64,000 nucleotides of DNA from Gossypium raimondii (lineage: Eukaryota; Streptophyta; Magnoliopsida; Malvales; Malvaceae): the NCBI RefSeq assembly GCF_025698545.1, contig NC_068575.1, forward strand, positions 62,257,980 through 62,321,979, given 5' to 3'. The notes beneath the pieces are model-generated. The model saw only the letters and a program-made list of their open reading frames with translations, did not search any database and was not told where the DNA came from. This document shows positions 11,316-35,863 of this stretch, in pieces. Numbering within the stretch: position 1 is the stretch's first letter; each line of letters begins with the position of its first letter. The position numbers and the translations under genes were made by a program.

Positions 11316-11500
11316 GATAAAAATATTATAGAGGCTTATGTACTAGATGTTATATTGTATTTTAACCCCTATACTAAAAATAGACAAATTAATTTATCTA
11401 TATTAGATCAAAGAGCAAATTACCCTTCATTAAAAATCCTATGTTACTTTTACTCTTACAAACTAACATGGTTAACAAAAATAACCAAATAGTAGTAAGT
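11316..11500 (+). mobile_element. Half of a MITE (left arm only)
   Basis: The segment starting 'gataaaaatattatagagg', then 'gtactaga', 'tattgtattttaacccc' and 'ttagatcaaagagcaaatta', matches the left arm and middle of the MITE family at 43-47 kb, but no right inverted repeat follows. The counterpart in copy B lies at about 30545-30730, so the truncation predates the tandem duplication. Confidence 0.55.
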
Positions 11501-13143
11501 AGTGACATGTGATATGTACCTAATTTGAAAATGACTAATTTGGAAATGACTTTTGTAAGAACTGAAATTTTAGAATTTGAAAAGTATAAAGACTAAAATT
11601 GACTGAATTTTACAGAGACTAAATCCATATTTTTGCAAAATATAGGCACTTAATAATAAAATTTAACCAAAATATTATTAGTTGAGATTTATATATATTA
11701 AAATAATGTAACATCCGCGTTTTAACTCGGGGTTAAGTACAGATGATGGATCGGGTTAAGAATTAGTATAAAATTTTTAAAATATAATAAATAGGAATTT
11801 TGAGTATTAAATTAGGAAGTATATAGTCTAATAAGAAATTAGAAAAAAATAAAAAAATACTCTTTAGATAGGAAATTTTAAAATAGATACATTGATTTAG
11901 TTGAAAGAATAAAAAATTGTTGTGGCCAAAGTAGAAAAATATTAAGTTAGGAGATATATTATAGTAAAGGAATGAAGGACTAAAAGAAATTTAACCAAAG
12001 TGTTGTATAAGTCATATTAGGAAATATGAAAGATGAGGAAGGACAAAGTGGTAATTAGCCAAGTAAATATTTATTAGGTGTAATTATGATGGGTAAAAGT
12101 AAAAAGATGGATGGCTTAAGGACTTAGTAGCAATTTGACCATTTTAATTAAAAATGTGAGATATTTTAGTAGAATGGTGTAGAAAGTGGGAGAAAAGATG
12201 AAAATATATATCATCTTTTCACAAGCCAAACCGTCACTTCTTTCCCCCCAAGTTTCATCCAACTTTTCTTTTAATTCCCTTCATGTCCTTCCATCATAGT
12301 TGAACCATCCAAGCTTCAAACCTTCATTTTTCTTTGAAATTTCCTTGGTAAAAATCAAAGAGCTAAGGTAAGAAATGATGAAATTATCATATAAATGTTA
12401 TATGTTTTATATGAAATTGAAGAGAAAGAAAAGAAAGGAGATGGTCTAATTGAAGAAAAAGGGAAAGAGAAGGCTAAGGAGTGAAGGAAGAAGAAAATAC
12501 ATCATCTCAACTTTTTTGTTGTAAGTACTACAAGATTTTAAATTATTTTTATTTAAATGCTTATATTTTAGTATGGAATTACTTAGAATAGAAATGTAAA
12601 ATATATATTTAAATTTGTAAATAGATAAAAAAATTAGATTATGAAATTATGAAATTTGTAAAGAAAATTATATGGTGAAGAATATGAAATGGTATATTGT
12701 TTGAACACTAAGTAATGATGTTGTGGTAAAAGTATATGTGTGAAAAAGGTGTGATATTTGTTATTTGTGAAATCGGGACTAAATTGTAGATGATGGAGAA
12801 ATGAGAAATCTTTTCCGAAATATTTATCTAAAGTATTTACGTGTATGAAATTTAGCTTTAATGCCAAAATAGATGGAATTTAGAACTACTAGGATATTAG
12901 TGGCATGCCATTAAGGGACCGTAGCATGCTCTTCGATTATTAGCATATTAGTGCTCTCCGTTTAGCACATTTGTGCTCTCTGTATAGCACTTTAGTGCTC
13001 TCTGTTCAATAGTGCATAATAATGCACCTCTGTATTTATTCCGTATATCTGGTGTGTTCTATAAAGTCTACTTTGGGCTAAAAATATGAGTTGTGAACAA
13101 AAGTGAATCACCAATGTGTTGAGGTAAGTTTGATAACTTACAA

Positions 13144-15987
13144 TGTAATAGCCTGAATTTTTAGTGGTGTCGGAATGGTGATTCGAGATCACTAAATCTG
13201 ACAAACGAGTAGAAAATATTATAAATTTAGTAAGTATAAGTTAAATGTGAAGTTAGGAAAATTTTTGAAATAGTGAATAGTGTACTAGGAATAAATATTA
13301 AAATAATTAAAATAAAAAAACGAGGTATCGAGACCTCGAAGATTTTAAACCGAGCCATAAATATTTTTAGAAATATTTATAGAGTGTCATTGAGTTGGTA
13401 TTAAAGTTTCAGTTAGAAAATTTTAACGTTTGGATAGTTAATTAACTAAAAGGACTAAATTGGGAATAGTGTAAAATTTGTTAAATTGTGATTAAATAGC
13501 TTAAGTGACTAAAGTGGAGGGATTTAAAAGGCTATTAGGCCCAAATTATATGGGCTGGACGGTTGGGTAAGAAAAATCAGCAGAATGTAAGGAGAAACAG
13601 GGGCAAAATTGGAAACTTAACAAATTAAACATTTAAAACAAAGACAAAAGTGAAAAATCTAGAGATCTCTTCACAATTAATCAGCAAAAACGCCATAGGA
13701 GGTCTGGAATAAGCTGGTTTTTCATATTTTTGAATCATGTAAGTTTAATTCTTGATTATTTCTTCTAATTTTGTGATTTTGATACTTTTACAATTAGGTC
13801 CAACTAATTATTTCATTAGTTTTTGATTCCATGGCTGATTTTGAAAGTTACCATTGATTAGTGTTGGATTTTATGATGAATAAACATGAAATTGAAGCTT
13901 TAATTTTGTTATATGATGATTTTATTAAGTAATTTTGATAGAAATTGATTTTAGGGACCTAATTGTGAAAAAGTTGGGAATTAAGGTTTGGTGTTGCGGT
14001 TTTGAGTATGAAAGGCTATGTAGTAGTCTAAAATAGTTGGAAAAGGTGTTAATTGAGAAAAATTAGATCAATTGAGGGTTAATTGAGTAGGGATCAAATT
14101 GTAAAACCTGTAAAGTTTGGGGTAAAAGTGTAATTTCGAAAATTAAAGGGCATAAATTGTGAAATGAATTAGAATTGAATTAAATGCTGATGAATGAATA
14201 AATTTGCATTTTAGATCGAGAACTTGAAACAAGTCGAGGAAAAGAAAAAGTAGTCGATTAGTCCCTGAACTTTTACAAATTCTGCAAATCGATCCAGGTA
14301 AGTTCATATGGCTGAAATTTAATGATTAAATGTTAATTTCATGAATTATACAATGTATGGTGAAATGTATTTATTGTTGAAATGAGAATAAAATAAAAAT
14401 GTGAAAATCGAATAAATGATCAAATTAAGTGGAACGTCGGATTTGAGTACTTCTGATCAAGTGACAAAGTGATAAGTGGTAGTTTTAGCTACACTTATCT
14501 GATCAAGAAACAAAGTGATAAGTGGTTACACTTATCTGATCAAGAAACAAAGTGATAAGTGGTTACACTTATCTGATCAAGAAACAAAGTGATAAGTGGC
14601 TACACTTATCTGATCAAGTGATAAAGTGATAAGTGGTAGCTTCACTACACTTATCGATCAAGTGGTAAAGTGATAAGTGGTAGCCTAGCTACACTTATCG
14701 ATCAAGGACAAGTGATAAGAGGTCATATGGCAAAGTGAAAGTGAAGTACTCAAATTTCCATAACTGTTCCTTAATTTTGATCAAGGATGGTAAGTGGCAA
14801 ATGGGCCCAAAGGAATTATGGTAAAAGAATAAGTAGTAGTGAGTTTATACCAAGGAACTCACCAAAGATTGTGGTTGATGTAAATTTAGTAATGGTGTAT
14901 ATTGTATAAGTGTACAAGTGTTTGGTAAGATTTATGTTTTATGCCTATGAACTTACTAAGCTTTTCTATAAGCTTACATGTGTGTGTTTATTGTTTTGTA
15001 GATTAACGATTTATACATTCGGAGGATCGGATCTACATCAAGAATCACACTACCCAGATATACTCCGTAGTTTATGTTAAGCAACTTTTGGATTTATATG
15101 GCATGTATAGGAATTGAAGTAAAAGTAAATTTGAATGTTACGGTTATGTTAGATATCGAAATATATACATGTTTTAGTTTGAAATGGTTGATTGGTTGAA
15201 CTTCATTAGTATTTAAATGAAGTAGATGAAATCTGGAATTGGTTGTGATTTGAAATTTGCAGGGAAGGTTAGACAATTATAAAGGGGTTATATTGAATTT
15301 TTTTAAAAATTGCAATGGAGCAGTTCTTGGACAGCAGCATTGATGTAACTTTTAAAAATCACCAAAAATAGTGGAAATAGAATTAGAAGTTGAGTGAGAT
15401 ATGAAATTAAAGCTGAAAGAGTCTACTTTCATAGGAAAGAAGTGGAGTAAGCAAAAGAATTATATACTTTTAGATATTTGAATTTTAGTGAAACAGGGCA
15501 AGAATGTTTTTGAAGTCCCCTGTTCTGACTTTAGAAATTCATTAAAAATTGTACAAAAGGAATTTTGAGTTATAATTTATATGTAAAGACTCATTAATGA
15601 GTCTATTTTCAGTAGAAATAATTTTAATCACCATATGAAGCCTTTAATAAGAGATAATTAAATTTTAGTGATGAGTGGTTAGGATAGTCGATTAGTGAAA
15701 CAGGGGATACTTCAACTAATAAACTGTACTAATTGGCTAAAGCAAAAATTCTGAAAAATTTATGGTGAATAGATATATGAGTCTAGTTTTATGGAAAATT
15801 TACGGATCTAAATTTTGAGTTTCGTAGCTTGAATTATAATTATTTTAGTGACTGCTGTACAGGAGGACAGCTTTATTATGAATGATGAAATTAAATTTGA
15901 AAGTAAATTTTATGCCCGAACTTTTAAGTTAAGTCAAGTAACGCCTCATGCTCGACTCCGCCATGGTCTCGGGTAAGAGGTGTTACA
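13144..15987 (+). repeat. 5' LTR of the gypsy element
   Basis: 2844 bases, TGTAA...TTACA ends. It contains the cluster of GATAAGTG/CACTTATC units at 14460-14715. It begins right after the first TACAA target copy. Confidence 0.93.
14460..14715 (+). repeat. Tandem palindromic units in the 5' LTR
   Basis: About seven units of 35-50 bp, each with 'gatcaag', 'aaagtgataagtgg' and 'acacttatc'. GATAAGTG and CACTTATC within a unit are inverted, so every unit can fold into a short hairpin. The same array sits in the 3' LTR. Confidence 0.85.
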
Positions 15988-15992
15988 TTTAG

Positions 15993-16004
15993 TGGTATCG
16001 AGCC
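15993..16004 (+). other. Primer-binding site of the gypsy element
   Basis: TGGTATCGAGCC, a few bases after the 5' LTR, resembles the common plant site complementary to the 3' end of initiator methionine tRNA. Confidence 0.7.
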
Positions 16005-16134
16005 GGTTTAGCCGGTCCTCGAATATGTGTGAAGTGTAAAGTGTTTAGAAATACATGCCATATAAATCGTGATAGTGTGATGTGTATGATCCGATCTAAT
16101 CTTTGTTATTTTATAGATACTCTCGATTATAAAG

Positions 16135-17160
16135 ATGTCAAATTTACTGAACGTCTTGATCAAGAAGAAGTTAACGAGAGACATGATTCGAACAAAGAGC
16201 AAGCAAGGATGTTCGATTTCCCAAATGCGAGAGCATGAATTAAAGAATATGATTTATGGGATTATGAATCAGTGGTATACTGAAATGAGGCAAGAAAGAA
16301 ATCAGGCTGAACCACCTCCTCCCCCTATTGCTCCATCGATGGTACCCCCGGTTGCTCCTCCACCTCCTACAACGACTGAATCTAGTAAGCGTTCTCCATT
16401 GGAAAGGCTTAGAAAACTTGGAGCCGAAGAATTTCGGGGAAGGACTGATGATGATCCCGTCAAAGCTGAATATTGGTTACAGAGTTTGATAAGAATTTTT
16501 AAAGAAATGGCTTGCTCACCAGATGACTATTTGAGATGTGCTGTGTCTCTGTTGAAAGAAGAAGCTTATAGTTGGTGGGAGACGATCGAGGCTGTGGTTC
16601 CGGCAGAGAAAATTTCTTGGGAATTTTTCCAAAATGAATTTAAGAAGAAATATGTAAGGCATCGGTATTTGGATAAAAAGAAAAGGGAATTTCTCGACCT
16701 CTGACGAGGAAATAAATCGGTAGTGAATATGAAAGAGAATTTGTCTACCTCAAAAAATATGCCCGAGACATTGTACCCATCAAGAAGAAATGTGTATCGG
16801 TTTGAAGAAGGGTTAAATGATGAAATTAGAATGATGATTGGGGTAATGAAATACGAGAGTTCGTTGTTCATCGACCGTGCTCAAAAGCTTGAAGAAGTAT
16901 ACAATGAAAAAATGCAATGGGATCGAAAAAGTAAAGAGCCATTCAAAAGAGGTGCTTCTAAGTCATTTTCAGATTTTCCTGAAGAAATCTAGAGAAGAAA
17001 TTAATCGAACTACATCGATTATCGGGGAGATCGGCGAGATAGACCAAGACAATCGATTTCGTGGTATTCGATAGACCAGTAGCAAGTGTGAGCAAAGTTC
17101 GTAATGCTTCACGACCTAAGTGTCAATATTGTGGAAGATATCATTTGAGAATGCGGGACT
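16135..17160 (+). pseudogene. gag region of the gypsy element (fossil)
   Basis: Encodes a capsid-type retrotrans_gag domain, recognisable from 'RKLGAEEFRGRTDDDPVKAEYWL' through the 'AYSWWET' and 'FFQNEFKKKYV' blocks, preceded by a proline-rich stretch. The downstream part is the charged region leading to the zinc knuckle. It belongs to the broken coding part of the element. Confidence 0.8.
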
Positions 17161-17163
17161 AAG

Positions 17164-20100
17164 ATGGGGCTTGTTATAAATGTGGGCTCTGATCATCTTA
17201 TTCGAGATTGTCCCCGGCTGCAAAAAGATGAAGTGGAACAGAAAGAGATACAGAGAACCATTCCTCAAAGAAGTAGACGTTCGGGCCAGAGCAGTGCTAC
17301 AGGGACTACCCGTTCGGGTACGAGGGAATCAGTTGGTCGATCAGAGAATAGAGCACCAGCACGTACCTACGCCATTCGAGCAAGGGAAGAAGCTACGGCT
17401 CCTGATGTAATTGCTGGTACTTTCTATCTTTATGATGTTATTGTTTATGCATTGATAGACCCTGGATCTACTCATTCATATATTTGCACTATGTTAGCAT
17501 CTGAAAAGAATTTATCTGTTGAGTCCACTGAATTTGATATACAAGTTACAAATCCATTAGGTCATAGTGTGATGGTTAATTTAATATGTCGTAATTGTCC
17601 ACTGAAAGTGAAAGGCTATGAATTCCCCGCTGATTTGATGTTGTTACCCTTTCGGGAATTTGACATTATTCTGGGGATGGACTGGTTAATGAGGCACGAT
17701 GCGGTGGTGAATTGTCGTGATAAGCAAATCAGTTTGAAATGTCAAACAGGAGATGTAATCTCAGTTGGGTCAGAAAATATGGGCGATCTGATCGAAATTA
17801 TTTCAACTCTCTCGCTTTCGAGATTATTACGCAAAGGCAATGAAGCATTCTTGGCCTATATCCTTGATACTCGGGTTCGATTTAAAGCTCGAACAAGTGC
17901 CGATGGTGAATGAATTTCTGATGTGTTCCTCAAGAGTTACCGGTCTACCACCGATAGAAGTTGAATTTGTAATTGATGTGATTCCGGAACAACTCCTATA
18001 TCAATGACACCGCATGAAATGGCTCCAATGAATTAAAAGAGTTGAAGGCGCGATTCAGGAGTTATTAGATAAAGGGTTCATCGATCGAGTATGTCGCCTG
18101 GGTGCACTGTCTTGTTTGTGAAAAAGAAGGACGGTTCTTTAAGACGTGTATAGATTACGAGCGGTTGAATAAGGTAACAGTAAAGAATAAATATCCTTTG
18201 CCTCGTATTGATGATCTGTTTGATCGGTTGAAAGGTCTTCGCAAGATTTTCCAAGATAGACCTTCGATCCGGTATTATCGTTGAAAGTTAAAGAGTGTGA
18301 TGTGCAAAGCGCCTTTCGAACTCGATATGGTCATTATGAATTTTTGGTGGTGCCATTTGGTTTAACCAATGCTCCTGCTTTGCTTTATGGATTTGATGAA
18401 TAGAATTTTTCAGTCATATTTGGATAGATTTGTGGTTGTGTTCATTGACGATGTATTGATTTATTCAAAGACGAGTCCGAACATGCACAACATCTAAGGA
18501 TTGTATTACGACTTTGCGAGAAAGCAGTTATATGCGAAATTCAAAGAAATGTGAATTTTGGCTTGAGAAGTTGCGTTTTTGGGTCATATGGTATCGGTGA
18601 TGGAATAAGAGTGGATCCAAGTAAGATAGCGGCGGTGGTAAATTGGAAAGTTCCAAAGAATGTTATCAAGTACAGAGCTTTCTAGGATTGGCGAGTTATT
18701 ATCGCCGATTTGTCAAAGATTTCTCAATGATTACCTTACCGCTGACTCGATTACTACAAAAGAATGTTGAATTTATATGGTCGATTTAATGTCGTGAGTT
18801 TCGATCGCTTGAAAAGATGTTGACAGAGGCTCCAGTGTTGACTCAACCGAATCCAGGCGTCTGCTTTGTAGTATATAGTGATGCGTCTCGAGTGGTTTGG
18901 GTTGTGTACTTATGCAGTCAGGAAAAGTGGTGGCATATGCTTCCCGACAACTTGAAACCGCACGAGAAGAATTATCCTACACATGATTTGGAATTGGCAG
19001 CGATCGTGTTTGCTTTGAAAATATGGAGACACTACTTATATGGTGAGAAATGTTACGTGTATACTGATCATAAAAGCTTGAAGTATTTAATGACTCAGAA
19101 AGAGTTAAATTTGAGACAGAGACGATGGTTAGAGTTGCTGAAAGATTATGATCTTGTCATTGACTATCACCCAGGGAAAGCAAATGTCGTAGCAGATGCA
19201 CTTAGTCGGAAATCATCATTATTTGCATTACGGGCATTGAGTGCTCATTTATCTATTAATGAGGATGGTTCTATACTAGCGGAATTAAAAGCTAAACCTG
19301 TGTTCTTTCAACGGATTCGGGAATTACAAGATGAAGACCCAAAATTGATGCTAAAACGACAGATGGTTCAAAATGAGTTAAGCTCAGAATACTCCATTGA
19401 TGAAAATGGTATGTTATATTATCGTAATAGAATATGTGTTCCAAATAATTTAGACTTGAAAAATGATATTTTATCGAGGCTCACAAGAGTATGTGTTCTA
19501 TTCACCCGGGGAGTACAAAAATGTATTGTGATTTGAAGAAAATGTATTGGTGGCCTGGAATGAAACGAGAAATCTGTGAATATGTAGCAAGATGTTTGAT
19601 TTGTCAACAGGTGAAAGCTGAGCATCAAGTGCCGACAGGGTTGTTACAGCCCATTATGATTCCAGAGTGGAAATGGGAACATGTCACGATGGATTTTGTA
19701 TCTGGATTACCAGTAACTCCGAAGAAGAAAGATTCGATATGGGTGATTGTTGATCGGTTAACTAAGTCGGCACATTTTATTCCAATGAAGCATTATCGAC
19801 TTGAAAAGTTAGCGGAGTTATATGTGTCTGAGATAGTGAGGTTACATGGGGTACCGATATCTATTATTTCGGATCGAGATCCGAGATTTACCTCGAGATT
19901 TTGGAGTAAATTACAGGAGGCTCTGGGCACCAAATTAAATTTCAGCACAGCTTTTCATCCCCAGACAGATGGGCAGTCAGAGCGAGTGATTCAGATTTTA
20001 GAAGATATGTTAAGGTGTTGTATACTTGAGTTCGGCGGCAGCTGGGAAAGGTATTTACCTTTAGCCGAATTTGCTTATAATAATAGTTATCAAACTAGTA

Positions 20101-20740
20101 TTAAAATGGCACCGTTTGAAGCTCTGTATGGAAGAAAGTGTAGAACTCCATTATATTGGACTGAATTAAGTGAATCGAAACTGGTGGGAGTGGACTTGAT
20201 TCGGGAAACTGAAGAAAAAGTTCGTATTATTCGAGATTGTTTAAAAGCTGCCTCCGATCGGCAAAAATCATATGCAGATTTGAAGAGAAGGGATATAGAG
20301 TTTAGTGTGGGTGATCGTGTATTTTTGAAAGTGTCACCGTGGAAGAAAGTTTTACGGTTCGGCAGAAAGGGAAAACTCATTACGATTTATCGGTAGTATG
20401 AAATCATTGAAAGAATCGGTCCAGAGCTTATAGATTGGCTTTGCCGGGAACTTGAAAATATTCATAATGTGTTTCATGTGTCTATGTTGAGACGGTATAG
20501 ATCAGATCCATCACATGTAATTCCTCATACGGAAATAGAGCTCCAACCTGACATGACTTATTCAGAGGAACCGGTGAAAATTTTAGCTCGGGAGGTTAAA
20601 GAGTTGAGGAATAAACGTGTACCACTAGTTAAGGTGTTATGGAATCGACATGGATCTGAGGAGGCAACCTGGGAAACGGAGGAATTGATGAGATTTCAGA
20701 TCCTAATTTATTTCAGTCACGAAATTTGGGACGAAATTTC
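17164..20740 (+). pseudogene. pol region of the gypsy element (fossil)
   Basis: Reads in family order: a zinc-knuckle remnant, aspartic protease with the DPGSTHSY motif (near 17460), reverse transcriptase (about 18000-18790), RNase H with '[10 protein letters not shown]' and '[14 protein letters not shown]' (about 18817-19300), integrase with its zinc-binding part and 'HPQTDGQSERVIQ' core (about 19490-20400), and a C-terminal 'VKVLWNRHGSEEATWE' chromodomain-like segment. This order defines Ty3/gypsy. The region is broken in several places. Confidence 0.85.
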
Positions 20741-20742
20741 CT

Positions 20743-20754
20743 AAAAGGGGAGAG
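20743..20754 (+). other. Polypurine tract of the gypsy element
   Basis: AAAAGGGGAGAG immediately before the right LTR, the usual position for priming plus-strand synthesis. Confidence 0.75.
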
Positions 20755-20755
20755 T

Positions 20756-23596
20756 TGTAATAGCTTTGAATTTTTAGTGGTGTCGAATGGTGATTCGAGA
20801 TCACTAAATCGACAAACAGTAGAAAATATTATAAATTTAGTAAGTATAAGTTAAATGTGAAGTTAGGAAAATTTTTGAAATAGTGAATAGTGTACTAGGA
20901 ATAAATATTAAAATAATTAAAATAAAAAACGAGGTATCGAGACCTCAAGATTTTAAACCGAGCCATAAATATTTTTAGAAATATTTATAGAGTGTCATTG
21001 AGTTGGTATTAAAGTTTCATTAGAAAATTTTAACGTTTGGATAGTTAATTAACTAAAAGGACTAAATTGGGAATAGTGTAAAATTTGTTAAATTGTGATT
21101 AAATAGCTTAAGTGACTAAAGTGGAGGGATTTAAAAGGCTATTAGGCCCAAATTATATGGGCTGGACGGTTGGGTAAGAAAATCAGCAGAATGTAAGGAG
21201 AAACAGGGCAAAATTGGAAACTTAACAAATTAAACATTTAAAACAAAGACAAAAGTGAAAATCTAGAGATCTCTTCACAATTAATCAGCAAAAACGCCAT
21301 AGGAGGTCTGGAATAAGCTGGTTTTTCATATTTTTGAATCATGTAAGTTTAATTCTTGATTATTTCTTCTAATTTTGTGATTTTGATACTTTTACAATTA
21401 GGTCCAACTAATTATTTCATTAGTTTTTGATTCCATGGCTGATTTTGAAAGTTACCATTGATTAGTGTTGGATTTTTATGATGAATAAACATGAAATTGA
21501 AGCTTTAATTTTGTTATATGATGATTTTATTAAGTAATTTTGATAGAAATTGATTTTAGGGACCTAATTGTGAAAAAGTTGGGAATTAAGGTTTGGTGTT
21601 GCGGTTTTGAGTATGAAAGGCTATGTAGTAGTCTAAAATAGTTGGAAAAGGTGTTAATTGAGAAAAATTAGATCAATTGAGGGGTTAATTGAGTAGGGAT
21701 CAAATTGTAAAACCTGTAAAGTTTGGGGTAAAAGTGTAATTTCGAAAATTAAAGGGCATAAATTGTGAAATGAATTAGAATTGAATTAAATGCTGATGAA
21801 TGAATAAATTTGCATTTTAGATCGAGAACTTGAAACAAGTCGAGGAAAAGAAAAAGTAGTCGATTAGTCCCTGAACTTTTACAAATTCTGCAAATCGATC
21901 CAGGTAAGTTCATATGGCTGAAATTTAATGATTAAATGTTAATTTCATGAATTATACAATGTATGGTGAAATGTATTTATTGTTGAAATGAGAATAAAAT
22001 AAAATGTGAAAATCGAATAAATGATCAAATTAAGTGGAACGTCGGATTTGAGTACTTCGATCAAGTGACAAAGTGATAAGTGGTAGTTTTAGCTACACTT
22101 ATCTGATCAAGAAACAAAGTGATAAGTGGTTACACTTATCGATCAAGAAACAAAGTGATAAGTGGTTACACTTATCGATCAAGAAACAAAGTGATAAGTG
22201 GCTACACTTATCGATCAAGTGATAAAGTGATAAGTGGTAGCTTCACTACACTTATCGATCAAGTGGTAAAGTGATAAGTGGTAGCCTAGCTACACTTATC
22301 GATCAAGGACAAGTGATAAGAGGTCATATGGCAAAGTGAAAGTGAAGTACTCAAATTTCCATAACTGTTCCTTAATTTTGATCAAGGATGGTAAGTGGCA
22401 AATGGGCCCAAAGGAATTATGGTAAAAGAATAAGTAGTAGTGAGTTTATACCAAGGAACTCACCAAAGATTGTGGTTGATAGTAAATTTAGTAATGGTGT
22501 ATATTGTATAAGTGTACAAGTGTTTGGTAAGATTTATGTTTTATGCCTATGAACTTACTAAGCTTTTCTATAAGCTTACATGTGTGTGTTTATTGTTTTG
22601 TAGATTAACGATTTATACATTCGGAGGATCGGATCTACATCAAGAATCACACTACCCAGATATACTCCGTAGTTTATGTTAAGCAACTTTTGGATTTATA
22701 TGGCATGTATAGGGAATTGAAGTAAAAGTAAATTTGAATGTTACGGTTATGTTAGATATCGAAATATATACATGTTTTTAGTTTGAAATGGTTGATTGGT
22801 TGAACTTCATTAGTATTTAAATGAAGTAGATGAAATACTGGAATTGGTTGTGATTTGAAATTTGCAGGGAAGGTTAGACAATTATAAAGGGGTTATATTG
22901 AATTTTTTTTAAAAATTGCAATGGAGCAGTTCTTGGACAGCAGCATTGATGTAACTTTTAAAAATCACCAAAAATAGTGGAAATAGAATTAGAAGTTGAG
23001 TGAGATATGAAATTAAAGCTGAAAGAGTCTACTTTCATAGGAAAGAAGTGGAGTAAGCAAAAGAATTATATACTTTTAGATATTTGAATTTTAGTGAAAC
23101 AGGGCAAGAATGTTTTTGAAGTCCCCTGTTCTGACTTTAGAAATTCATTAAAAATTGTACAAAAGGAATTTTGAGTTATAATTTATATGTATAGACTCAT
23201 TAATGAGTCTATTTTCAGTAGAAATAATTTTAATCACCATATGAAGCCTTTAATAAGAGATAATTAAATTTTAGTGATGAGTGGTTAGGATAGTCGATTA
23301 GTGAAACAGGGGAGACTTCAACTAATAAACTGTACTAATTGGCTAAAGCAAAAATTCTGAAAAATTTATGGTGAATAGATATATGAGTCTAGTTTTATGG
23401 AAAATTTACGGATCTAAATTTTGAGTTTCGTAGCTTGAATTATAATTATTTTAGTGACTGCTGTACAGGAGGACAGCTTTATTATGAATGATGAAATTAA
23501 ATTTGAAAGTAAATTTTTATGCCCCGAACTTTTAAGTTAAGTCAAGTAACGCCTCATGCTCGACTCCGGCCATGGTCTCGGGTAAGAGGTGTTACA
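20756..23596 (+). repeat. 3' LTR of the gypsy element
   Basis: 2841 bases, same termini as the left LTR and followed by the second TACAA target copy at 23597-23601. Against the left LTR I count roughly twenty one-base length differences but only about three substitutions. Confidence 0.93.
22064..22318 (+). repeat. Tandem palindromic units in the 3' LTR
   Basis: Counterpart of the array at 14460-14715, with the same number and order of GATAAGTG/CACTTATC units. Confidence 0.85.
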
Positions 23597-24487: not shown

Positions 24488-26409
24488 CATCGTTATCAAT
24501 TTAGATACTAATTTTAAAAGAAATAACAGTTATAATTTTGAATTCCTAACATTATTTCTTCTATGTAAACATTGTTTAGTTGTTTTTTTCATTTTCTTGC
24601 ACTCTAGAATTTTCACTTGTGAGTTTTAGTACTTTAGTTGAATAGTAAAATATAAATATTGAAAATTATAAAAGTTTGGGTGAGTATTTTCGTTATTAAT
24701 TATTACTCAATTGAGTTAGTGTTTGATTAATTTATGACATTAAAATTAGTAAAAATTAGTTTTTTATATTTTTATATCCATCTTACAATTTATATTTGAG
24801 GTTCGTAGACTCTTTCTAACTATATTCTTTAAATTTCTTTTTTTTCATACCGTTTTTAATACTTAATTTTCATTAATTTATTTATGATATGGTTTATTGA
24901 TCATGCATAAATTTATATTTGAGAACCTAAAAAATTATTTTATATATTAAATTAGATAAATAGTTGCATAATTAAATACAAATAATTTTTAAATATAATA
25001 ATGAAAATAATTGTTGACTTTCTGGTTTAATCATGGCATGCTGTCCACATCTAATCACCACACCTTATGAAAAATTGTCATAGCTTCTGAATTTTTCAAA
25101 ATTTAATTAATAAATGTCATGTCAATCTTAATTTTTATCATCATTTCATTATCGACTATAATTAAATTATCATATTATTTTTTTAAAAAATTAAATTTTC
25201 GCCATCACTAAATTATAAAAAATAAAATTTCAAAATTTTTCTTTAATTTTAATTAAAAATGGAATTGTTATGGTTACATGTGTAAAAGAATTAAATAAAT
25301 TATGAATGTATTCGAATAAGGCCAAATTCCAGTCCATCGTTGTTCCTAAACATTGAATTATTGGCTCCAACCCTTCCATTTAATTACTTGCTTTTCCTGG
25401 TTTTTTTCATTAATGGTATTTGGTTTTTCTGAAAAAATTATTAATCAATTTTTAAAAGTTTTATATTTAAGCTAAAATATGAATATTCTCCTACTACGGT
25501 ACATTTCTTGGTATATAGTAGGGTTGTAACTCGCAACACTAAAACTTACACACTTCGTAAAAATCACAAAAATATATACACCTCATCTATGAATGAATTA
25601 TCAAATCCATCGTACAATGGTTCGACTTGTTAATTAATATGTAAGGGTTATCGTGTACGTTTTGATTATTTAATTTTAAAAATTATAAAATTATAAAATA
25701 ATTACTAAATTATTTAGAAATATTAAAGTTATTGGAATATTAAAATCGTTATTAAATGATATTATTTTCTACAATTTAATTTCTTTTACAAAACAGTTTT
25801 GAACCTTATAAATTTACTACTCAAAATTTAAACAGTTTTTTTCACTAATTTCCGACACTAACTGTCGAATTGACTTATGATTGTTCTACTTTTTTATGGA
25901 TACTAACAGTGTCGAATTGACTTAGGATTTTTCTACTTTTTTATGGGTACTAACTCACCAAATCAACTAGAGTTTTTTTAAAAAAAAAAAACTTAATAAC
26001 CCGATAACTTAAACAAAAAAATTTTAAATAATTCAATAACATTTTATAATTTTTAAAATTACAAAGATGAATTTAACACTATTAATCGAATCCGTATAAA
26101 TTTAGGAGAAAAAAAAAGTACGTGGTGGCCACGGCCATGAAAATCATACAGGATTCGTCGCAGTTGTATAAGAACCTCTAAAAACTCATGAAACTTAAAA
26201 CTAGTGATCCAAATCTCTCGTCGAATTGAAGGCGTTCACATGCAGACAAACAATCACCATAACTATTTTAATTTCATCGTAATGCAGCAAGTCTTTGTTC
26301 TTTTCTTCGTTTACTTTCTTATAAATGTTTTTAAGATTATAATCTTGCATGATCGAAAGAAAAAAAGAAAAAAAGAAAAAAAAGTTGAAGGTTTAAGACC
26401 AGAACAACA
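24488..26409. other. Intergenic region between CDC20-A and LSI2-A (part of duplicated unit)
   Basis: AT-rich DNA colinear with about 34164-37228 in copy B, apart from the MULE there and a few indels. At about 25873-25960 a roughly 50-bp direct repeat reads 'gtcgaattgactta' ... 'ctacttttttatgg' twice. The last 300 bases, with an A/G-rich leader just before the ATG, are the LSI2-A promoter and 5' leader. No gene seen. Confidence 0.6.
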
Positions 26410-28966
26410 ATGGCGTTAGCCGCTACATACAAAGTGGTTCTCGGCTCAATAGCCTTTGCAATCTTCTGGGTATTAGCTGTTTTCCCTGCCGTCCCACTTC
26501 TACCAATCGGAAGAACCGCCGGGTCTTTACTCGGTGCCATGCTTATGGTTTTATTCAGAGTAATAACCCCAGATGAAGCTTATGCCGCCATTGATCTACC
26601 AATCTTGGGTCTTTTATTCGGCACCATGGTCGTTAGTATTTATCTCGAAAGAGCCGATATGTTTAAGTATTTAGGTAAATTGCTTTCATGGAAAAGTAAA
26701 GGAGCTAAGGATTTAATCTGTAGAATCTGTTTGGTTTCTGCGATTTCAAGTGCTTTTTCACTAATGATACTTCTTGTGTGATATTAACCGAGTTTGTATT
26801 GAAAATTGCAAGGCAACATAATTTGCCTCCTCACCCATTTTGTTAGCACTTGCTTCGAGTGCTAATATAGGTTCTTCGGCTACTCCGATTGGGAATCCAC
26901 AGAATTTGGTGATTGCTGTTCAAAGTAAGATTTCTTTTGGGGATTTTCTTGTTGGGGTTTTGCCGGCAATGCTGGTTGGTGGGTCGGTGAATGCTTTGAT
27001 ACTTATAATTATGTATTGGAGATTGTTATCTGTTCATAAAGATGAAGAAGATGGGACTGGTGAAATAGTGGGTGAAGATGATGTGAGTTCACATCGGTTT
27101 TCGCCGGCCACAATGTCACATATTTCAGCTTCGAATTCAATGGATCATGTTCAGAGCTCTCCTAATAGCATTAATGGAAGTTTAGCAACTCACCTTGACA
27201 GCCTTAGGAACCGAGTCAACTCGGGCGATCAACTTGAAATCCAGAGGTCACCTTGTGGTTCGATTGATTCAAATGATATATCATCGCCGGCTCAATTTTC
27301 AGAGGAAAAAGAATCAAAAACAGAGCATTGGAAGAACAAGATGTGGAAATTATGTGTTTATTTAGTCACTATTGGGATGTTGGTTGCTTTGCTTATGGGT
27401 TTGAATATGTCATGGACAGCCATTACAGCATCATTGGCACTTGTTGTTCTTGATTTTAAGGATGCAAGGCCTTGCTTGGAAAAGGTTTCTGAATTAAGAT
27501 TACAGAGTGGGATTTTAAGTTTTGATTTTTTTTTTTGAATGATTAAAAAAGGTTTGCTTGTTTTTTTGTATGAACAGGTATCGTATTCGCTTTTGCTTTT
27601 CTTCTGTGGAATGTTTATTACGGTGGAAGGGTTCAATAAAACTGGGATTCCAAGTACTCTTTGGAACTTTATGGAACCCCATGCCAATGTCGATCGTGTT
27701 TCCGGGATTGCGGTTTTAGCTGCCGTTATTCTTCTCCTCTCCAATGTGGCTTCCAACGTACCAACCGGTAAAATATATTAGAATGGAGAAATATTTGAAG
27801 TCTTGTTTATCCGAAATTTGATCGATCCTTTAATGGATCGATATTATCCTCAGGTCAAGTTAATTTCTTGTTTCTGATTTAAAGAGAATCCAAGTGATTG
27901 AGATTGTCTAAAGAGGCAGTAAGTTCACAGAGTAGAAACGTCTTGTCAGATTGGACCATGTATGGATTATGGTCATTTATTATAGGTGTTCTCGCTTTGT
28001 GAACTTATCGTCTCTTAAAACAACCTCAGGAACTCAAACTCTCCATAGAGTCATGAGATAAAACTTCGGCTTGACCTAGAAATAATACCGATCTGTTAAG
28101 AGGTTTATCGACTCTGAATGAACGACATCTCCCCTAAAACACACACACACAATTTCCCCTAAAAAAAACACATATATATATTATTAAATTTTTCAATTCG
28201 ATTCAATTGAGTCGTACCAATTCTCAAAAAAAAAATTTTATTATTAAATTTATTGCCTACAAGATTACAGATTTTTATATAAATTTGGACAAATTTTGAT
28301 GTTAGTCCTATATTTTGACAAATTTGAAATTTAATCCCTATACTTCAAAATAAAAACAATTCAATCCTCATACCTTTTTTATTTAATAATTTTAGACCAA
28401 TCATTGTCTTCGTCAGTAATTTTAATTAAAATTTGCTAATATAACATGTTTACTTCTCGTCAATCATATTCATGTTACATGAAGACAATCAAATCATCAT
28501 GTCAAATTGACAAATTTTGATAAAAAATACTTATAATTTTAATGATTGAACAAAAAATAGTATGACTTGATGTTTAAGCTTTAAACTACACTAAATCTTA
28601 AATTTTATAAACTACATCAACTAACAGCATATTTTATAAAATTTTGTCTAAGTAGAGTAACTAACAGTTTCTCTTGGCACAAATATATATGTATGTTCTT
28701 CAGTTCTGTTGCTTGGAGGGAGAGTGGCGGCATCAGCCGCGGCGATATCAGCAAGTGAAGAGAAGAAAGCATGGCTGATATTAGCATGGGTGAGCACGGT
28801 AGCCGGAAACCTGTCGTTGTTGGGATCGGCGGCGAACTTGATAGTATGTGAGCAAGCTCGTCGAGTACCACATCTTGGCTACACATTGTCTTTCTGGAAT
28901 CACCTTAAATTTGGAGTTCCTTCTACGCTTATAGTCACTGCAATTGGTTTGACACTTATTAGATGA
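26410..28966 (+). pseudogene. LSI2-like anion/silicon efflux transporter, copy A, frameshifted
   Basis: Three exons by comparison with copy B: 26410-27484, 27578-27767 and 28704-28966, with the same splice sites. The product would be an ArsB/NhaD-superfamily membrane transporter of the LSI2 type (efflux of silicic acid or arsenite in relatives; substrate here unknown). Exon 1 is two bases shorter than in copy B. One T is missing in the run at 26754-26758, in the conserved 'AFFTND' coding stretch, and one in the run at 26838-26841, before '[11 protein letters not shown]'. Between the two the frame is wrong and a stop is met, so the protein would end after about 124 residues. All else, including splice sites, is nearly identical to copy B. 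Either a very recent pseudogene or a functional gene with homopolymer sequence errors. Confidence 0.8.
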
Positions 28967-29017
28967 TTATTACAACATAAACAGAATTAATTATAAATTG
29001 TTTAAAATATGTCATAA

Positions 29018-29019
29018 GC
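29018..29019. other. Junction of the tandem segmental duplication
   Basis: Left of this point the sequence is the 3' flank of LSI2-A and matches the flank of LSI2-B up to about 39787. Right of it the sequence abruptly matches CDC20-A exon 2 from 9885. Both parental ends share CATC (9885-9888 and 39788-39791), so the join shows about 4 bp of microhomology plus one extra G. The unit therefore runs from inside CDC20 exon 2 to just past LSI2. Confidence 0.9.
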
Positions 29020-30226
29020 ATCCGACCAAATCCTTAAAGCCTAGAAGACATATTCCCCAGGTAAGTACAGCACGATATGGATACTTTGGTTAGTTCAGAG
29101 AATTTTGGTTCAACAGACTCTAATATGATGCGATTTTCAATTCTTCTGAGCTCTGAGAGAACATTGGATGCTCCTGATCTCGTCGACGATTTTTACCTGA
29201 ATTTATTGGAGTGGGGCAGCAGCAATGTACTAGCAATAGCACTCGGGAACACTGTGTATCTGTGGGATGCTTCAGATAGTTCTACTTCAGAACTTGTCAC
29301 CGTTGATGACGAAAAGGGACCAGTAACAAGTGTGAATTGGGCTCCTGATGGTCGGCATATTGCCATTGGCTTGAACAATTCCGAAGTACTACCATGGGAT
29401 TCGACTGCCAACCGACAGGTTCCATATTAAAGTCTTTGCCGAACATTTTGCAGCTTCTTCTTATTGTTCCTCCATTTTTAAATTTTTCCCTTTGTTGCTG
29501 CAGCTGCGTACTCTGAGAGGTTGTCACAGATCAAGAGTGGGTTCAATGGAATGGAACAATCACATTCCCACAACAGGAGGAATGGATGGTCAGATTGTTA
29601 ACAACGATGTGAGAATTAGATCCCATGTTGTTGAAACTTACAGAGGCCACCAGCAAGAGGTTTGCGGGCTGAAATGGTCGGCTTCCAGGCAACAACTAGC
29701 CAGCGGAGGCAATGATAATGTTGTTCACATATGGGATAGGTCCATGGCATCTTCAAATTCACTAACTCAATGGCTACACAGGTTGGAGGAGCATACCTCA
29801 GCTGTCAAAGCCCTTGCCTGGTGCCCTTTCCAGAGCAACTTGCTGGCCACAGGTGGAGGTGGCGGCGATCGCACCATAAAATTTTGGAACACACATACTG
29901 GTGCATGCTTGAATTCAGTTGATACCGGCTCCCAGGTTTGCTCATTACTATGGAGCAAGAATGAGAGGGAGCTATTGAGTTCCCATGGGTTTACTCAGAA
30001 TCAATTAACTCTTTGGAAATATCCATCGATGGTGAAGATGGCAGAGCTAACGGGTCATATATGTAGAGTACTTTACATGGCTCAAAGCCCTGGTGGGTGC
30101 ACAGTGGCATCAGCAGCAGGGGATGAGACTCTAAGATTCTGGAATGTTTTTGGGGTTCCAGAAGTGGCTAAAACTGCTCCGAAAGTGAACCGTGAGCCAT
30201 TCTCTCAGTTGAACCGTATCCGGTGA
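29019..30226 (+). pseudogene. CDC20 copy B, 5'-truncated by the duplication breakpoint
   Basis: Holds only the last 42 bases of exon 2 (29019-29060), exon 3 (29149-29418) and exon 4 (29504-30226). Exon 1, the KEN motif, C-box, Mad2-binding segment and promoter are absent, so it cannot act as an APC/C activator. The acceptor before exon 3 has changed from CAG to CTG. Exon 4 still reads through 240 codons, but has replacements at positions constant in the other three copies, such as Gly to Arg in '[11 protein letters not shown]', Leu to Pro in 'HILTTGG', Thr-Ser to Ile-Cys in '[11 protein letters not shown]' and Asp to Gly in 'QSPDGC'; exon 3 has 'VQLWDS' changed to 'VLPWDS'. The open frame reflects youth, not function. 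Confidence 0.9.
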
Positions 30227-30765
30227 TGAAGAAAAAGACTAGGAGTAGTGGCGGTGCCGTTGGATTCTTTGTTTTGTAAAGTTTTTCCTCTGATGGCATG
30301 TGTAGAGTAATGTTAGGGATAGTGGGATAAATTGTTCATCCCCGTCTACATTATATTTTCAGCTCCTTATTGAAATTGTTTCCTACTCTTGAATTTTTAA
30401 TCTGCTCACATATTGAATTGGATAAATGAAAGAAATTCTTAGGTTAAATTCTACTATTATTATATGAGCTTTATGAAAATTATGAATTTTAGTCTCTATA
30501 TATTTGGTTTATTCTAGTTTTTATAATTTTGGAATTGATCAATTTTGATAATAATATTACGGAGGCTTATGTACTAGATGTTAGATTGTATTTTAACCCT
30601 TATATTAAAAATAGACAAATTAATCTATCTACATTAGATCAAAGAACAAATTACCCTTTCTGTTAAAAAATTTATGTTACTTTTACTGTTAAAAGTTAAC
30701 ATGGTTGACAAAAACAACCCAATAGTAGTAAGTAGTATGTGATATGCCATGTATATAAAGACCAA
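30227..30765. other. 3' flank of CDC20-B
   Basis: Colinear with the 3' flank of CDC20-A (11093-11520), including the truncated MITE arm at about 30545-30730. An extra stretch at about 30378-30470 is absent from copy A. No gene seen. Confidence 0.6.
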
Positions 30766-33700
30766 GGGTCCGCTTGTTTGGTGGAAAATGTTTTTCGGAA
30801 AACATTTTCCGGATTTTCCGGCATTTGTTTGGTGGAAAATGAATTCCTAAAGGAAAACATTCTCCAAAACACGAGTAAATCAATTCCCAATTTCCGGAAA
30901 ACGTCTTACCGATTTGGAATCCGTAAGACATTTTCCATTCCCTTCTCTTCACTCTCATCACAGTGGTTCTCCCTTCCTCTCTATCCATCAGCCTCCGCCG
31001 TTCCTCCTCATCTCTGTTCGTTGGCCTTGTCATCTCTGTCGGTCGACCATCGTCAAGTCTGTATTTTGAAGAAACCTTAAAAAATTAGCAGCCACAGGTA
31101 TATCACTATCTTCTTTCTTATTTATGCTCATGCTGGTTCTCTTCTAATGGCAGATTTGTAATGCATGTTGGTTCACCTCTTCTCGTTAGGTTGCTAAAAA
31201 ATTACAGCTTGAATCGTCACCGCTTCTCGCGATTCATCGAAGGTAGATTTCTACTCACATTCTTGTTTGCAAGCTCTAGGATTTAATTGTTAGGGGTTTC
31301 TGCATATTTGTATTAGTATTTTATTTTTTATTTTGTTCGATTGCTGAGGTTCGACAAATGAAGTAGGATTGAGATGTAAACTTGAGGAATTAAAAATTGG
31401 TAATTTTTTAGCTTCAACTGGCTTTAGTGTGTTAAATAAAGCATTTTATTTGATGAAACTAGATTTTGTTGATTAGTCAGGGATTTTGTTCATTTCAATC
31501 TTGGCTTGGATTTAAATTGGGGAATATTTTGAAAGGGCAGCATACATTACATACATACATACATTCACATATATGTTTTTCAGTTTTTTATTACAGTAAT
31601 AACATGAGCCATGTATATACATGTATATACTGTTGGGAGTTGGGACATATGTTCCAAATATAATAGACATGTGATCTCAAACAAATATTTAGTTTTTCTT
31701 GTAATAAATTGTATTTCTCCGTGCATTCTCCTTCTATACATTTCATTTAATGGATTATTGGGTACTTTTTCTAATTATGGGTTTCACCCTGCTTGCTTCT
31801 CCTTATGGTTCTTGGTTGAATTACTTGCATTAATTGTAATCATTATTTCGTTTAGAATAGTTAATTGGATCATGAATTTATTATTTTAAATGTAGATATA
31901 TTATGCCTCTCCTTGTTTTATTTTAAGAACAGTAAACCTCAAATGCATTAACCTGGTGTACAATCGGGAAATGAGAGTCCTTGCAACTCAACAAAGCTAG
32001 TTCAAGTTGTCGATGTACAATCTCAATGAGATTGATATTTAATTGATATATATTTTTAGTTTGTTGCTCAGCTGGAGGTATAGTAAAATAAATGGCAGTG
32101 TTCTTCTGCTCGAGTTTGGTTATTTTGCTGAAATTTATTTGTTGGGCTAATTTTTTTGAATTATGATTCTATCTTAAGTCATAATGTGTTAATGATATGG
32201 TTGTAAAAGGTTTTTCCACACATAAACCCTGATTATGTTTTAAGCTTTATCAATCTCTGATTCATGATTTTGATTCTGATTCTAATATGTTTGTTTTATT
32301 AAATTTGTGCCCAGAGATGGGCAAACAGCCTTGGTAGCAATTTTTGTTTTGATGCATGAGAGGTGATTTACATAAAGGAGTTACACAGTTTAGAAACTTA
32401 TTTAAATAAAAGGTAAATTGAATTGGTGGTTCAATCATGATTTAACATTCATTTGGGTTTTACTGGAAAGTGCCTTAAGTAAACTATTATAGTGCTATTA
32501 CGTAAATATCTAATTGATCTTAATTCTCTGTAGCTTTTGATTATTGAGTTAGTGAAGTTATTGTGTGATTCAGAGCATTGGGTATTGCTTAGAATTTCTA
32601 GTTGATTGTAAACATGTGCCACTTGCTACCCGTTATAAAGTCAGGATAAATTTTAGGATCACTAATCTATAAAGTTAGGATTGAAAATCATTTATTGCAA
32701 TCTGTAAGACACTTATGAATATAACATAAAAAATTGATCCTCATATATGAGGGGAAGAGATGAATATATTTGTTGATGAATTTGTCTTGCTGCATGCAGT
32801 AATTCTGTAGCTAGGGAGCGAAAAGGTGCTCTAATAAGTTCTGTGATGGTTTATACATATAAATGCCAGTTAGTTGAAGATTGAAAAGTTACTTGGAAGA
32901 AAAAATGAACCTATCTGTTGGACGTTAGAGGTTAAACAATCGAAAAATTGACTATTCAATGTTTTGAAAAGAATCTAACCATGCCTCATGAATATCCATA
33001 AGCTCCAGTGACGTTGCATAGGGGTTATTTTTATTGATGAATATTTATCTGAAATGTTTTGTTGGATGTTTATCTAGTAGGAAAATATATTTATTGATGA
33101 ATTTTAGACTATGAAATATGAAGAAAGATTAATTTTATGGAGGGACCAAAATTGAGTTATAAAATTTTGCAAACATTATAATATAATTTTATTATTGTAC
33201 TATTTTTATAGCTTTCAATTTTTATAAATTAAAGAATAATTATTTTTTCTATTTGTGAGGGAGGCAAAAATACTTGACATCCTCTGTCGCCACATCTGTT
33301 TTTATGTATCTAACTTTTAATAAAAAATTTATACTTTACAATCAGTTCCATTGGGTTCCATTTTGATAGCAAAGTTTATATGCCCAAGAATATGCAATGT
33401 TTAATTAAAATATATTTTGATTACGTGATACCGAAAATAATTAAAATAATATATTTAAAACTAATACTGATATGATTAATATTTTAACGAACTAACCATT
33501 GAATTCATTAATATACTTGTACTTGTCATGCATGTAAAATTATAAATTGATCTAAAATATTGTATATATTAATATTTATTGAAGTATTGGTACAAAGAAA
33601 GTAGCTTATAATTTCTCAAAAATTATTAAAATTACAAAGAAAGTAGCTTAATTTCTCAAAAATTATTAATGCAATTATAATTAGCTTGATATGTATGTAT

Positions 33701-33995
33701 GCACTTTAGTCATGGTAACTTTTAGTCATATATGTGATCTTATGAAAATCTTGCATCTTTTTGTAGTGATCAAATATTTATTTATAAATAAATCATTGCA
33801 ATATATGTAAAATAATTTAAAATATAAATTTATTAATATGTATATAAATTTATTAATATATGTAAAAACAGCTTTTCCGGAAAATATTTTCAGGAAATCT
33901 GCCAAACAACAGGAAATATTTTACACAGATTCATCCAAACACCAGAAAAGTAAATCATTTTTCGAAAAATATTTTACTTGCAAACAAACGGAGCC
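30766..33995. mobile_element. Non-autonomous PIF/Harbinger-like DNA transposon (3.2 kb)
   Basis: Terminal inverted repeats GGGTCCGCTTGTTTGG and, on the other strand, GGCTCCGTTTGTTTGC, followed by related GGAAAA/TTTTCC-rich subterminal sequence, mark 30766 and 33995. The flanking triplets are CAA and TAA, consistent with a decayed 3-bp TWA-type target site. The paralogous position in copy A (about 11520) lacks it. The interior has no readable transposase. A pyrimidine-rich patch at about 30930-31080 and an 'acat' microsatellite near 31545 are the only distinctive parts. TIR sequence and target length favour Harbinger/Tourist, but this was not checked against a library. Confidence 0.68.
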
Positions 33996-34837
33996 TAATT
34001 TGGAAATGACTTTTATAAAGATTGGAATTTTGAAATTTAAAAAATATAACGACTAAAATTGACCAAATTTTAGAGAGGCTAAATCAATATTTTGCAAAAT
34101 ATAGGCACTTAATAATAAAATTTAACCAAAATATTATTAGTTGAGATTTATATGTATTAAAAATAACACCATTATCAATTTAGATACTAAATCTTATTTT
34201 AAAAGAAATAACAGTTATAATTTTGAATTCCTAACATTATTTCTTCTATGTAAACATTGTTTAGTTAATTTTTCATATTTCTTGCACTCTAGAATTTTCA
34301 GTTGTGGGTTTTAGTAATTTGGTTGAATAGTAAAATATAAATATCGAAAATTATAAAAATTTGGGTGATTATTTTTGTTATTATTTATTACTCAATTGAG
34401 TTAGTACTCGATTAATTCATGACACTAAAATCAGTGAAAAATTTAATTTTTATATTATTTATAACCATTTTATAATTCATATTTAGGGTTAGTCGATATA
34501 TATCGTTTCCAAAATTATCACATTGTACCAAAATCTTTTAAATATTTGTTATATTAATGAAATGATTTTAAACATGAATTATGATTAATTGATACGTAAG
34601 AAGACAGCATTTTGCTTATAAATATTTGACGAGTTGTTAATTCATTTAACCAAATATAATATTTTGCAATTCTTTATTAATGGCGGTCCAATTCCAAAAT
34701 AGAAAATGGAAATAAAAAAGAAAATAGTTTTAGAGTTTGTAAAAATATACACATTTTAGTAAATAAAAAATAACAAATTTTGATTTTAAATTTAATACTT
34801 AGTTTTTCATTAATTTATTTATGATATGGTATATTGA
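33996..34837. other. Duplicated intergenic DNA with empty site for the solo LTR
   Basis: Colinear with copy A on both sides of its 12.8-kb nested insertion: 33996-34167 matches about 11532-11707 and 34168 onward matches 24488 onward. The single AATAA target copy lies at about 34163-34167. No gene seen. Confidence 0.75.
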
Positions 34838-35854
34838 GGGCAAATGACCAAAAAAAGCCATTTCTTTTTAAATTACCGTAATGGGCTAATTAGCTAATTA
34901 TTTACCGGAATGGTCCATTTTTCGCGAAATCGCGTCCACGTCAGCGCGATGTCAGGGTACGCGCCAGGAAATCGCGTCCACGTCAGCGCGATTTGCTTAC
35001 GTGGCATTAACAGTTTATGTTTTTTAGCTCGGAAAACTTTGAAAGGCCATAACTTTTCGCTCGGTTGTCCGATTGAGACGATTTTTTTTATTTCGAATAA
35101 ATTTTCGAGATCTACGCGCTGACAAACTGCCCGCACTTTTCATCAAAAAAGATCATTTTTTACCCCTAAATTTTGATTTTTTCGGTTCAAAATTGAATTT
35201 TGTACTTGATGTTATTGATGTAATATTGAAGAGTTGATTGATTCAAAAGATTCAAAAGATTCAAAATTGTTACTAACAAGATTTGAACCAAGGTACTAAG
35301 GGAAAAGAGCAAGCATCTTAACCAACTAAGCTAAACTAATTAATTAATATATTATAAAAATACTGTTATTATCTTAATTATATTACTTACGTTCTAACGA
35401 TTTATCAGACCTATTCCATACATGTGTCAAATCAGAAGAAATAATACAACAATTCTGTAAAAAAAATCCGGTGTTTACTCCGAATAAATAAGAAAAATAA
35501 TGATTTGAATGTTTCAAAATTCAATTTTGAACCGAAAAAATCGAAATTTAGGGGCAAAAAGGATCTTTTTTGACGAAACGTAGATCTCGAAAAGTTATTC
35601 GAAATAAAAAAAATCGTCTCAATCGGACAACCGAGCGAAAAGTTATGGCCTTTCAAAGTTTTCCAAGCTCAACAAATAAACTGTTCATGCCACGTCAGCA
35701 AATCGCGTCCTAGAGGGAGCTATTTGTGTCCACGTCAGTAAATCGCGCTGACGTGGACGCGATTTCGCGAAAAATGGACCATTCAGGTAAATAATTAGCT
35801 AATTGGCCCATTTTAGTAATTTAAAAAAAAAAGGCTTTTTTTGGTCATTTGCCT
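34838..35854. mobile_element. Foldback MULE (Mutator-like MITE) with long inverted repeats
   Basis: A 1017-bp element with arms at 34838-35204 and 35515-35854 that are inverted copies (ends GGGCAAATGACCAAAAAAAG / AGGCAAATGACCAAAAAAAG). It is flanked by a perfect 9-bp duplication GTATATTGA (34829-34837, 35855-35863). Long terminal repeats and a 9-bp duplication are the marks of Mutator-like elements. Copy A has one uninterrupted site near 24890. The arms carry repeated 'aaatcgcgtccacgtcagcgcgat' modules. No transposase. Confidence 0.9.
35266..35336 (-). other. tRNA-like fragment inside the MULE loop
   Basis: On the minus strand the segment has an A-box-like TAGCTTAGTTGGTTAAGA and, about 30 bases on, a B-box-like GGTTCAAATCT at tRNA spacing. 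The stems do not pair well enough for a working tRNA, so it is a tRNA-derived relic carried in the element's spacer. Confidence 0.5.
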
Positions 35855-35863
35855 GTATATTGA

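Follow-up and report, generated by a model that had tools for sequence, protein, structure and literature searches.

Private transposon insertions in the two copies of a Gossypium raimondii tandem duplication and the probable homogenisation of their genes by conversion

REANNOTATE takes the order of repeats from their nesting and their age from the divergence of long terminal repeats (LTRs) (PMC2672092). Studies of interlocus gene conversion and concerted evolution describe duplicate parts that are more alike than the age of the duplication predicts (PMC2720389, PMC3924837). We analysed a 64,000-nucleotide stretch of Gossypium raimondii DNA (the window; C11:62257980-62321979) in a genome of 750.8 Mb and 281 contigs. 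Self-comparison identified a tandem duplication in the window, whose copies A and B carry a CDC20-like gene and a transporter gene. Copy A contains a solo LTR with a Ty3/gypsy element nested in it, copy B contains a PIF/Harbinger-like element and a Mutator-like element (MULE), and each copy retains the unfilled target sites of the other's insertions. The coordinates are collected in Table 1. An account in which duplication was followed by private insertions in each copy and by conversion of the coding parts is, as a whole, very probably correct.

The insertions are bounded by target site duplications (TSDs) and face single targets in the sister copy, which confirms the reciprocal empty sites proposed in a sequence-only reading of the window. 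The solo LTR is one LTR with a TSD of AATAA on each side and no internal region of its own, and copy B has a single AATAA. The MULE-like element has terminal inverted repeats (TIRs) and a 9-bp TSD, GTATATTGA, that is identical on both sides (9/9), and copy A has one GTTTATTGA. The Harbinger-like element has GGG..-type inverted ends and a 3-bp TSD of the TWA type, mismatched on the left, and copy A has one TAA. The ends of the inserted elements were fixed independently by many genome relatives that begin or stop at identical bases. Short-word BLAST was used to compare each insert with the other copy's site and with 30 mononucleotide-shuffled sites. Remnants of the solo LTR, the Harbinger-like element and the MULE-like element were not detected at these sites beyond the shuffled range; the best E values were 0.095, 0.094, and 0.007, compared to shuffled medians of 0.095, 0.024, and 0.029 and lowest shuffled values of 0.002, 0.0004, and 0.002, respectively. 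The MULE value is better than its shuffled median and lies inside the shuffled range. With the inserts removed, A aligns collinearly with B across the unit, and the smaller indels that remain reach 227 nt at the largest. Collapsed or chimeric assembly of the tandem copies is a highly improbable source of the reciprocal presence and absence. The many 1-nt gaps between the gypsy LTRs do suggest imperfect base-level quality in repeats, but each inserted element carries a TSD of its own and termini that match, and the 377 differences between A and B in 5,946 aligned sites, mainly in non-coding parts, show that these are two loci and not a double reading of one.

The sequence-only reading placed all three insertions after the duplication. 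This logic is sound for the LTR, where a third version of the target is available beside a further CDC20-like copy in the window, copy D. The copy D flank (51613-51535) matches B 34128-34216 with 79.8% identity across 89 columns (E 7e-17, two-sequence comparison) and the joined flanks of A with 79.4% identity across 63 columns, and D has no LTR at this point. Copy D is an outgroup to A and B; 42 of the 44 informative CDC20-like sites pair A with B and C with D, and the other two pairings have one site each. B and D are both empty and D lies outside A/B, so the solo-LTR insertion is derived. Most of a 56-nt stretch found in B and missing from A is still present in copy D, which places that loss in A.

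The Harbinger-like and MULE-like elements were by far most likely inserted after the duplication as well. A search of the genome for a third version of these two sites yielded nothing outside A and B but short AT-rich or repeat-family matches. Copy D does not help to polarise them, since its flank no longer aligns when the MULE site is reached and it lacks the block containing the Harbinger target. The polarity of both elements therefore rests on the rarity of precise excision, and this tells against our account together with the one mismatch between the left Harbinger TSD and the right one. One or both elements might have predated the duplication and been precisely excised from A, or have been polymorphic when the duplication occurred. 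This is very unlikely. PIF/Harbinger elements can excise cleanly, and the search found no third copy of either site; however, the sites in A have neither a footprint nor a remnant above the shuffled range, MULE excision usually leaves footprints, and excision of both elements would require two independent clean losses. The base that distinguishes B from A at the MULE target is present in both TSD copies. If that base changed in B, the change preceded the MULE insertion; if it changed in A, it is uninformative.

The divergence between A and B depends strongly on the kind of sequence. The Kimura two-parameter divergence (K) is 0.097 ± 0.009 in well aligned intergenic DNA (1,469 sites; 0.132 over all 1,784) and 0.096 ± 0.012 in intron 2 of the transporter gene (786 sites; 0.113 over all 856). 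It is 0.0037 in transporter exon 1 (1,075 sites), 0.016 in exon 2, 0.015 in exon 3, and 0.0245 in the CDC20-like gene (1,204 sites). Exon 1 and non-coding DNA are thus about 25-fold apart. Divergence in 200-column windows varies between 0 and 0.41; the windows with the top values are gap-rich and doubtful. Synonymous changes number 2/244 in exon 1, 5/358 in the whole transporter gene, and 9/243 in the CDC20-like gene, and the exon 1 count differs from the 70/786 changes in intron 2 (Fisher P 9e-7). The transporter has a synonymous divergence (dS) of 1.16 from paralogue C, which indicates that change at its silent sites is not blocked. In the 1,000 aligned sites with the least divergence there are 4 mismatches, and the minimum in 2,000 shuffles was 34; these shuffles ignore constraint, whereas the comparison of silent sites takes it into account. 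A tract of low silent divergence therefore lies within diverged flanks. The best reading is that recent gene conversion homogenised the stretch from transporter exon 1 to exon 2, including the short intron between them. If so, the duplication is older than the divergence of its genes suggests. K at the LTR and Harbinger sites is 0.06-0.21, and both sites are diverged on both sides; the left side of the MULE site is also high (8/49).

Purifying selection combined with faster mutation in AT-rich methylated DNA could produce a contrast between exons and non-coding DNA without conversion, and the duplication age taken from non-coding DNA would then be right as it is or too old. We consider this unlikely, but several results point that way or otherwise weigh against our account. 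The intron 2 changes are transition-rich (54:16), so the exon contrast could partly be a difference in rate. The contrast is weaker for the CDC20-like gene (synonymous 9/243 compared to intergenic 133/1,469, P 0.004), and this gene has 22 private changes in the truncated copy B and 5 in A (P 0.0015). Few changes in A are expected if A is functional, and the excess in B indicates that relaxed constraint also acts on that copy. The right side of the MULE site has a low divergence (2/107), and the solo-LTR branch described below is an upper bound near the age of the duplication itself. Against an explanation by selection and mutation rate stand the 2/244 synonymous changes in exon 1 in a gene with a dS of 1.16 from paralogue C. 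Transversions alone keep the contrast (exon 1, 3/1,075; intron 2, 16/786), and the short intron 1 is also similar, with 2/93 sites changed compared to 8.5 expected (P 0.01). Conversion therefore remains the preferred reading. The homogenised stretches end near the exon 2/intron 2 and intron 2/exon 3 boundaries of the transporter gene, as they might if the template had been a reverse-transcribed spliced transcript that homogenised the exons and spared intron 2. The similarity of intron 1 argues against such a template, which we regard as improbable.

The gypsy element is younger than the LTR that hosts it, as the sequence-only reading had held. It is nested in that LTR, has TG...CA ends, and is flanked by the 5-bp TSD TACAA; the nesting does not imply its timing relative to the solo state. 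Domain searches outside the reverse transcriptase stretch between 17910 and 18790 found Retrotrans_gag (2.6e-6), RVP_2 (3.2e-35), RT_RNaseH (1e-24), and Integrase_H2C2 (3e-15) in gypsy order across several open pieces, and rve (2.9e-6) and Chromo (9.1e-5) are weak matches below the curated cut-offs. A piece of the gypsy LTR gave 5,771 first-look candidates. Among the 40 that were scored, 38 (the window's own included) are nearly full length at 97% identity or more and two are at 95%, and the gypsy family accordingly looks young and numerous. An insert of this kind was not detected at the nesting point in 11 rows of host-LTR relatives; one of them (L013) is without about 10 bp there.

The two gypsy LTRs differ by 6 mismatches in 2,829 aligned sites, of which 2 are isolated and 4 adjoin gaps, and by 24 gap events, mostly of 1 nt (25 were counted, one due to our own trimming). 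Compared with 11 other family copies, the window 3' LTR piece has 12-19 gaps and the 5' LTR piece has 4-11; those copies among themselves have as many gaps as substitutions, 478 each in 55 pairs. The surplus of 1-nt gaps in the pair is most simply residual long-read assembly error in repeats. The 99.0% BLAST identity of the pair was dropped as a measure of age because gaps stand to isolated substitutions as 24:2 (24:6 for all substitutions). K for the pair is 0.0007 (95% interval 0.0001-0.0026) from the 2 isolated changes and 0.0021 (0.0008-0.0046) from all six.

The comparison proposed with the sequence-only reading is between a non-coding K of 0.097 for A and B and a K of 0.0007 for the gypsy LTR pair. 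At equal rates the age ratio of the duplication to the gypsy insertion is about 137 from 2 changes, 46 from 6 changes, and at least 21 at the far limit, which makes the insertion about 1%, and no more than about 5%, as old as the duplication. At 7e-9 per site per year, the duplication is roughly 7-9 million years old and the gypsy insertion about 50 thousand years old, with an upper figure of about 0.3 million years. The conversion of the exon (4/1,075) and the gypsy insertion (2/2,829) are not ordered by test (P 0.052). The locus had been called an unusually clean internal clock. This description holds only in part: divergence varies about 25-fold between parts of the duplication, the raw LTR identity is dominated by gaps, and the insertions on the A side are unordered relative to those on the B side.

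The host LTR was placed with its relatives in a 12-row tree. Seventeen solo-LTR loci were compared and 11 entered the tree, with L062 and L063 forming the LTR pair of a single element. The six left outside are L059, L060, and L065, which repeat L007, L011, and L010, and the incomplete matches L015, L064, and L066. The terminal branch of the window solo LTR is 0.043 per site, and the adjoining inner branches are short. This branch is an upper bound on the age of the solo LTR and falls slightly below the duplication's own 0.049 per lineage (0.097 divided by two). One genome relative has two copies of the LTR on C6, on the same strand and 7.3 kb apart, with TTGGTATCAGAGC just after the first LTR, which we take to be an iMet-type (tRNA-Met) primer site. 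Judged from this pair and the primer-site-like sequence, the solo LTR appears to belong to a family with full LTR-internal-LTR elements.

A probable older insertion is common to both copies and went unmentioned in the sequence-only reading. It is a block of about 420 bp with inverted-repeat ends, resembling a miniature inverted-repeat transposable element (MITE), and it is absent from copy D. In B the block is flanked by AAATTCTTA and AAAATATTA (7/9), and D has a single AAAATATTA, as read by eye. Parts of the block are widely repeated: scoring 40 of 1,623 candidates gave at least 55 matches, including 3 in the window. The reading we favour is a Mutator-type MITE that contains a second repeat and was inserted ahead of the A/B duplication; deletion of the block from D is the alternative explanation of its absence there.

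Among candidate relatives of the two DNA elements, 40 of 2,038 for the MULE and 40 of 2,576 for the Harbinger were scored. Among nine MULE loci scanned, two have TSDs that match at 9/9, one at 8/9, one at 7/9, and five are without paired exact ends. The 1-kb MULE-like element looks non-autonomous. Among five Harbinger relatives, L030 and L036 have TTA preceding the 5' end, on the one flank that was seen, L029 and L031 have no motif match, and L074 has TAA on each side as read by eye, with no exact motif match. L074 (G000:C9:2072800-2079400) is a longer Harbinger-like relative of about 6.4 kb. No transposase domain was found above the cut-off in the six of its ten listed open reading frames (ORFs) that were scanned; HTH_Tnp_4 appears at E 0.052, below the cut-off. 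Dating the two elements from their relatives was dropped because the matches are patchy and mosaic. The divergence of the MULE TIR arms (83.5% identity) was also dropped as a clock because the arms need not match at insertion.

The order that stands begins with the MITE-like block, followed by the A/B duplication; copy A then received the LTR parent and after it the gypsy element, and copy B received the Harbinger-like and the MULE-like element, in either order. The empty sites do not order the insertions in A relative to those in B. An event of the end-joining type would have duplicated the CDC20-like gene, minus its 5' part, and the transporter gene in tandem, with the MITE-like element already between the two genes. 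The copies would then have diverged in non-coding DNA to a K of about 0.10. Copy A would have gained an LTR retrotransposon, now the solo LTR, and later, very recently, the chromodomain-type gypsy element within that LTR, and copy B would have gained the Harbinger-like element within the old MITE plus the MULE-like element. Gene conversion would meanwhile have homogenised the coding parts, above all transporter exons 1 and 2 with the short intron. The end-joining step is suggested by the junction at 29018/29019, which has one extra G beside a CATC match common to both parent breakpoints.

The duplicated genes were identified by domain searches. The CDC20-like WD40 gene, scanned in copy A, matches PF24807 (6.9e-93), and the transporter gene, scanned in copy B, matches CitMHS PF03600 (3.8e-69) and presumably resembles plant LSI2. 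The 1-nt gaps in exon 1 of the copy A transporter gene (26410-27484) both lie within T runs. Its frame looks broken, and the gaps may be assembly errors. Two more tandem CDC20-like copies (47926-50165 and 51776-53899, minus strand) are inverted relative to A and B, and with a third transporter copy at 44991-47447 they make up a cluster of two gene families. Segments related to the gypsy LTR (74-80%) lie at 40913-43050 on the minus strand, on either side of a 101-bp tandem repeat (41620-41973); they may represent another old LTR.

Table 1 Features of the duplicated locus, in window positions.
Feature	Position	Strand	Details
Copy A	9885..29018	+	most of CDC20-like gene, intergenic DNA, CitMHS-type transporter gene
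MITE-like inverted-repeat block, copy A	11252..11668	.	ends GGTTAAATT/AATTTAACC
Empty Harbinger target, copy A	11536..11538	+	TAA
Solo LTR TSD, left	11702..11706	+	AATAA
Solo LTR	11707..24482	+	2,318 bp without nested element; halves 11707-13143, 23602-24482; TG...CA ends
Nested Ty3/gypsy element	13144..23596	+	TSD TACAA at 13139-13143 and 23597-23601
Gypsy 5' LTR	13144..15987	+	from LTR pair alignment
Gypsy 3' LTR	20756..23596	+	from LTR pair alignment
Solo LTR TSD, right	24483..24487	+	AATAA
Empty MULE target, copy A	24892..24900	+	one GTTTATTGA
Transporter gene, copy A	26410..28966	+	exon 1: two 1-nt frame differences relative to B
Copy B	29019..39788	+	starts within CDC20-like gene, which is 5'-truncated
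MITE-like block, copy B	30442..34127	.	interrupted by Harbinger-like element
PIF/Harbinger-like element	30766..33995	+	copy B only; TSD CAA 30763-30765 / TAA 33996-33998
Empty solo-LTR target, copy B	34162..34166	+	single AATAA
MULE-like element	34838..35854	+	copy B only, long inverted ends; TSD GTATATTGA at 34829-34837, 35855-35863
Transporter gene, copy B	37229..39736	+	exons 37229-38305, 38401-38590, 39474-39736
Empty solo-LTR target, third version	51535..51613	-	flank of CDC20-like copy D

The locus records a layered transposon history in which each duplicate serves as the empty-site control of the other, and it illustrates two traps: through conversion, gene divergence can make a duplication look younger than it is, and through small indels, raw LTR identity in an assembly can make a young element look older than it is. 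Otherwise the locus shows the ordinary turnover of plant genomes, with nothing outside known transposon and gene-family evolution. A literature search on tandem duplicates combined with conversion and transposon insertion returned nothing related, and we do not claim that the locus is unpublished. The gypsy element shares with plant chromodomain Ty3/gypsy elements the gag, protease, RNase H, integrase, and weak chromodomain matches as well as many near-identical relatives, and nothing distinguishing was found. The DNA elements have the 9-bp and 3-bp TSDs, matching termini, and many genome relatives of plant long-TIR non-autonomous MULEs and PIF/Harbinger elements; the difference from the latter is that no transposase domain was found in the two Harbinger-region ORFs scanned. 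The method is a standard one and is like REANNOTATE in taking order from nesting and age from LTR divergence. Here, however, the host DNA is itself duplicated, the sister copy supplies empty sites and a second, non-coding clock, and LTR identity must come from substitutions only. Like the duplicates in PMC2720389 and PMC3924837, A and B are in part too similar for their age, but here the contrast adjoins private transposon insertions, which sit in the unconverted stretch.

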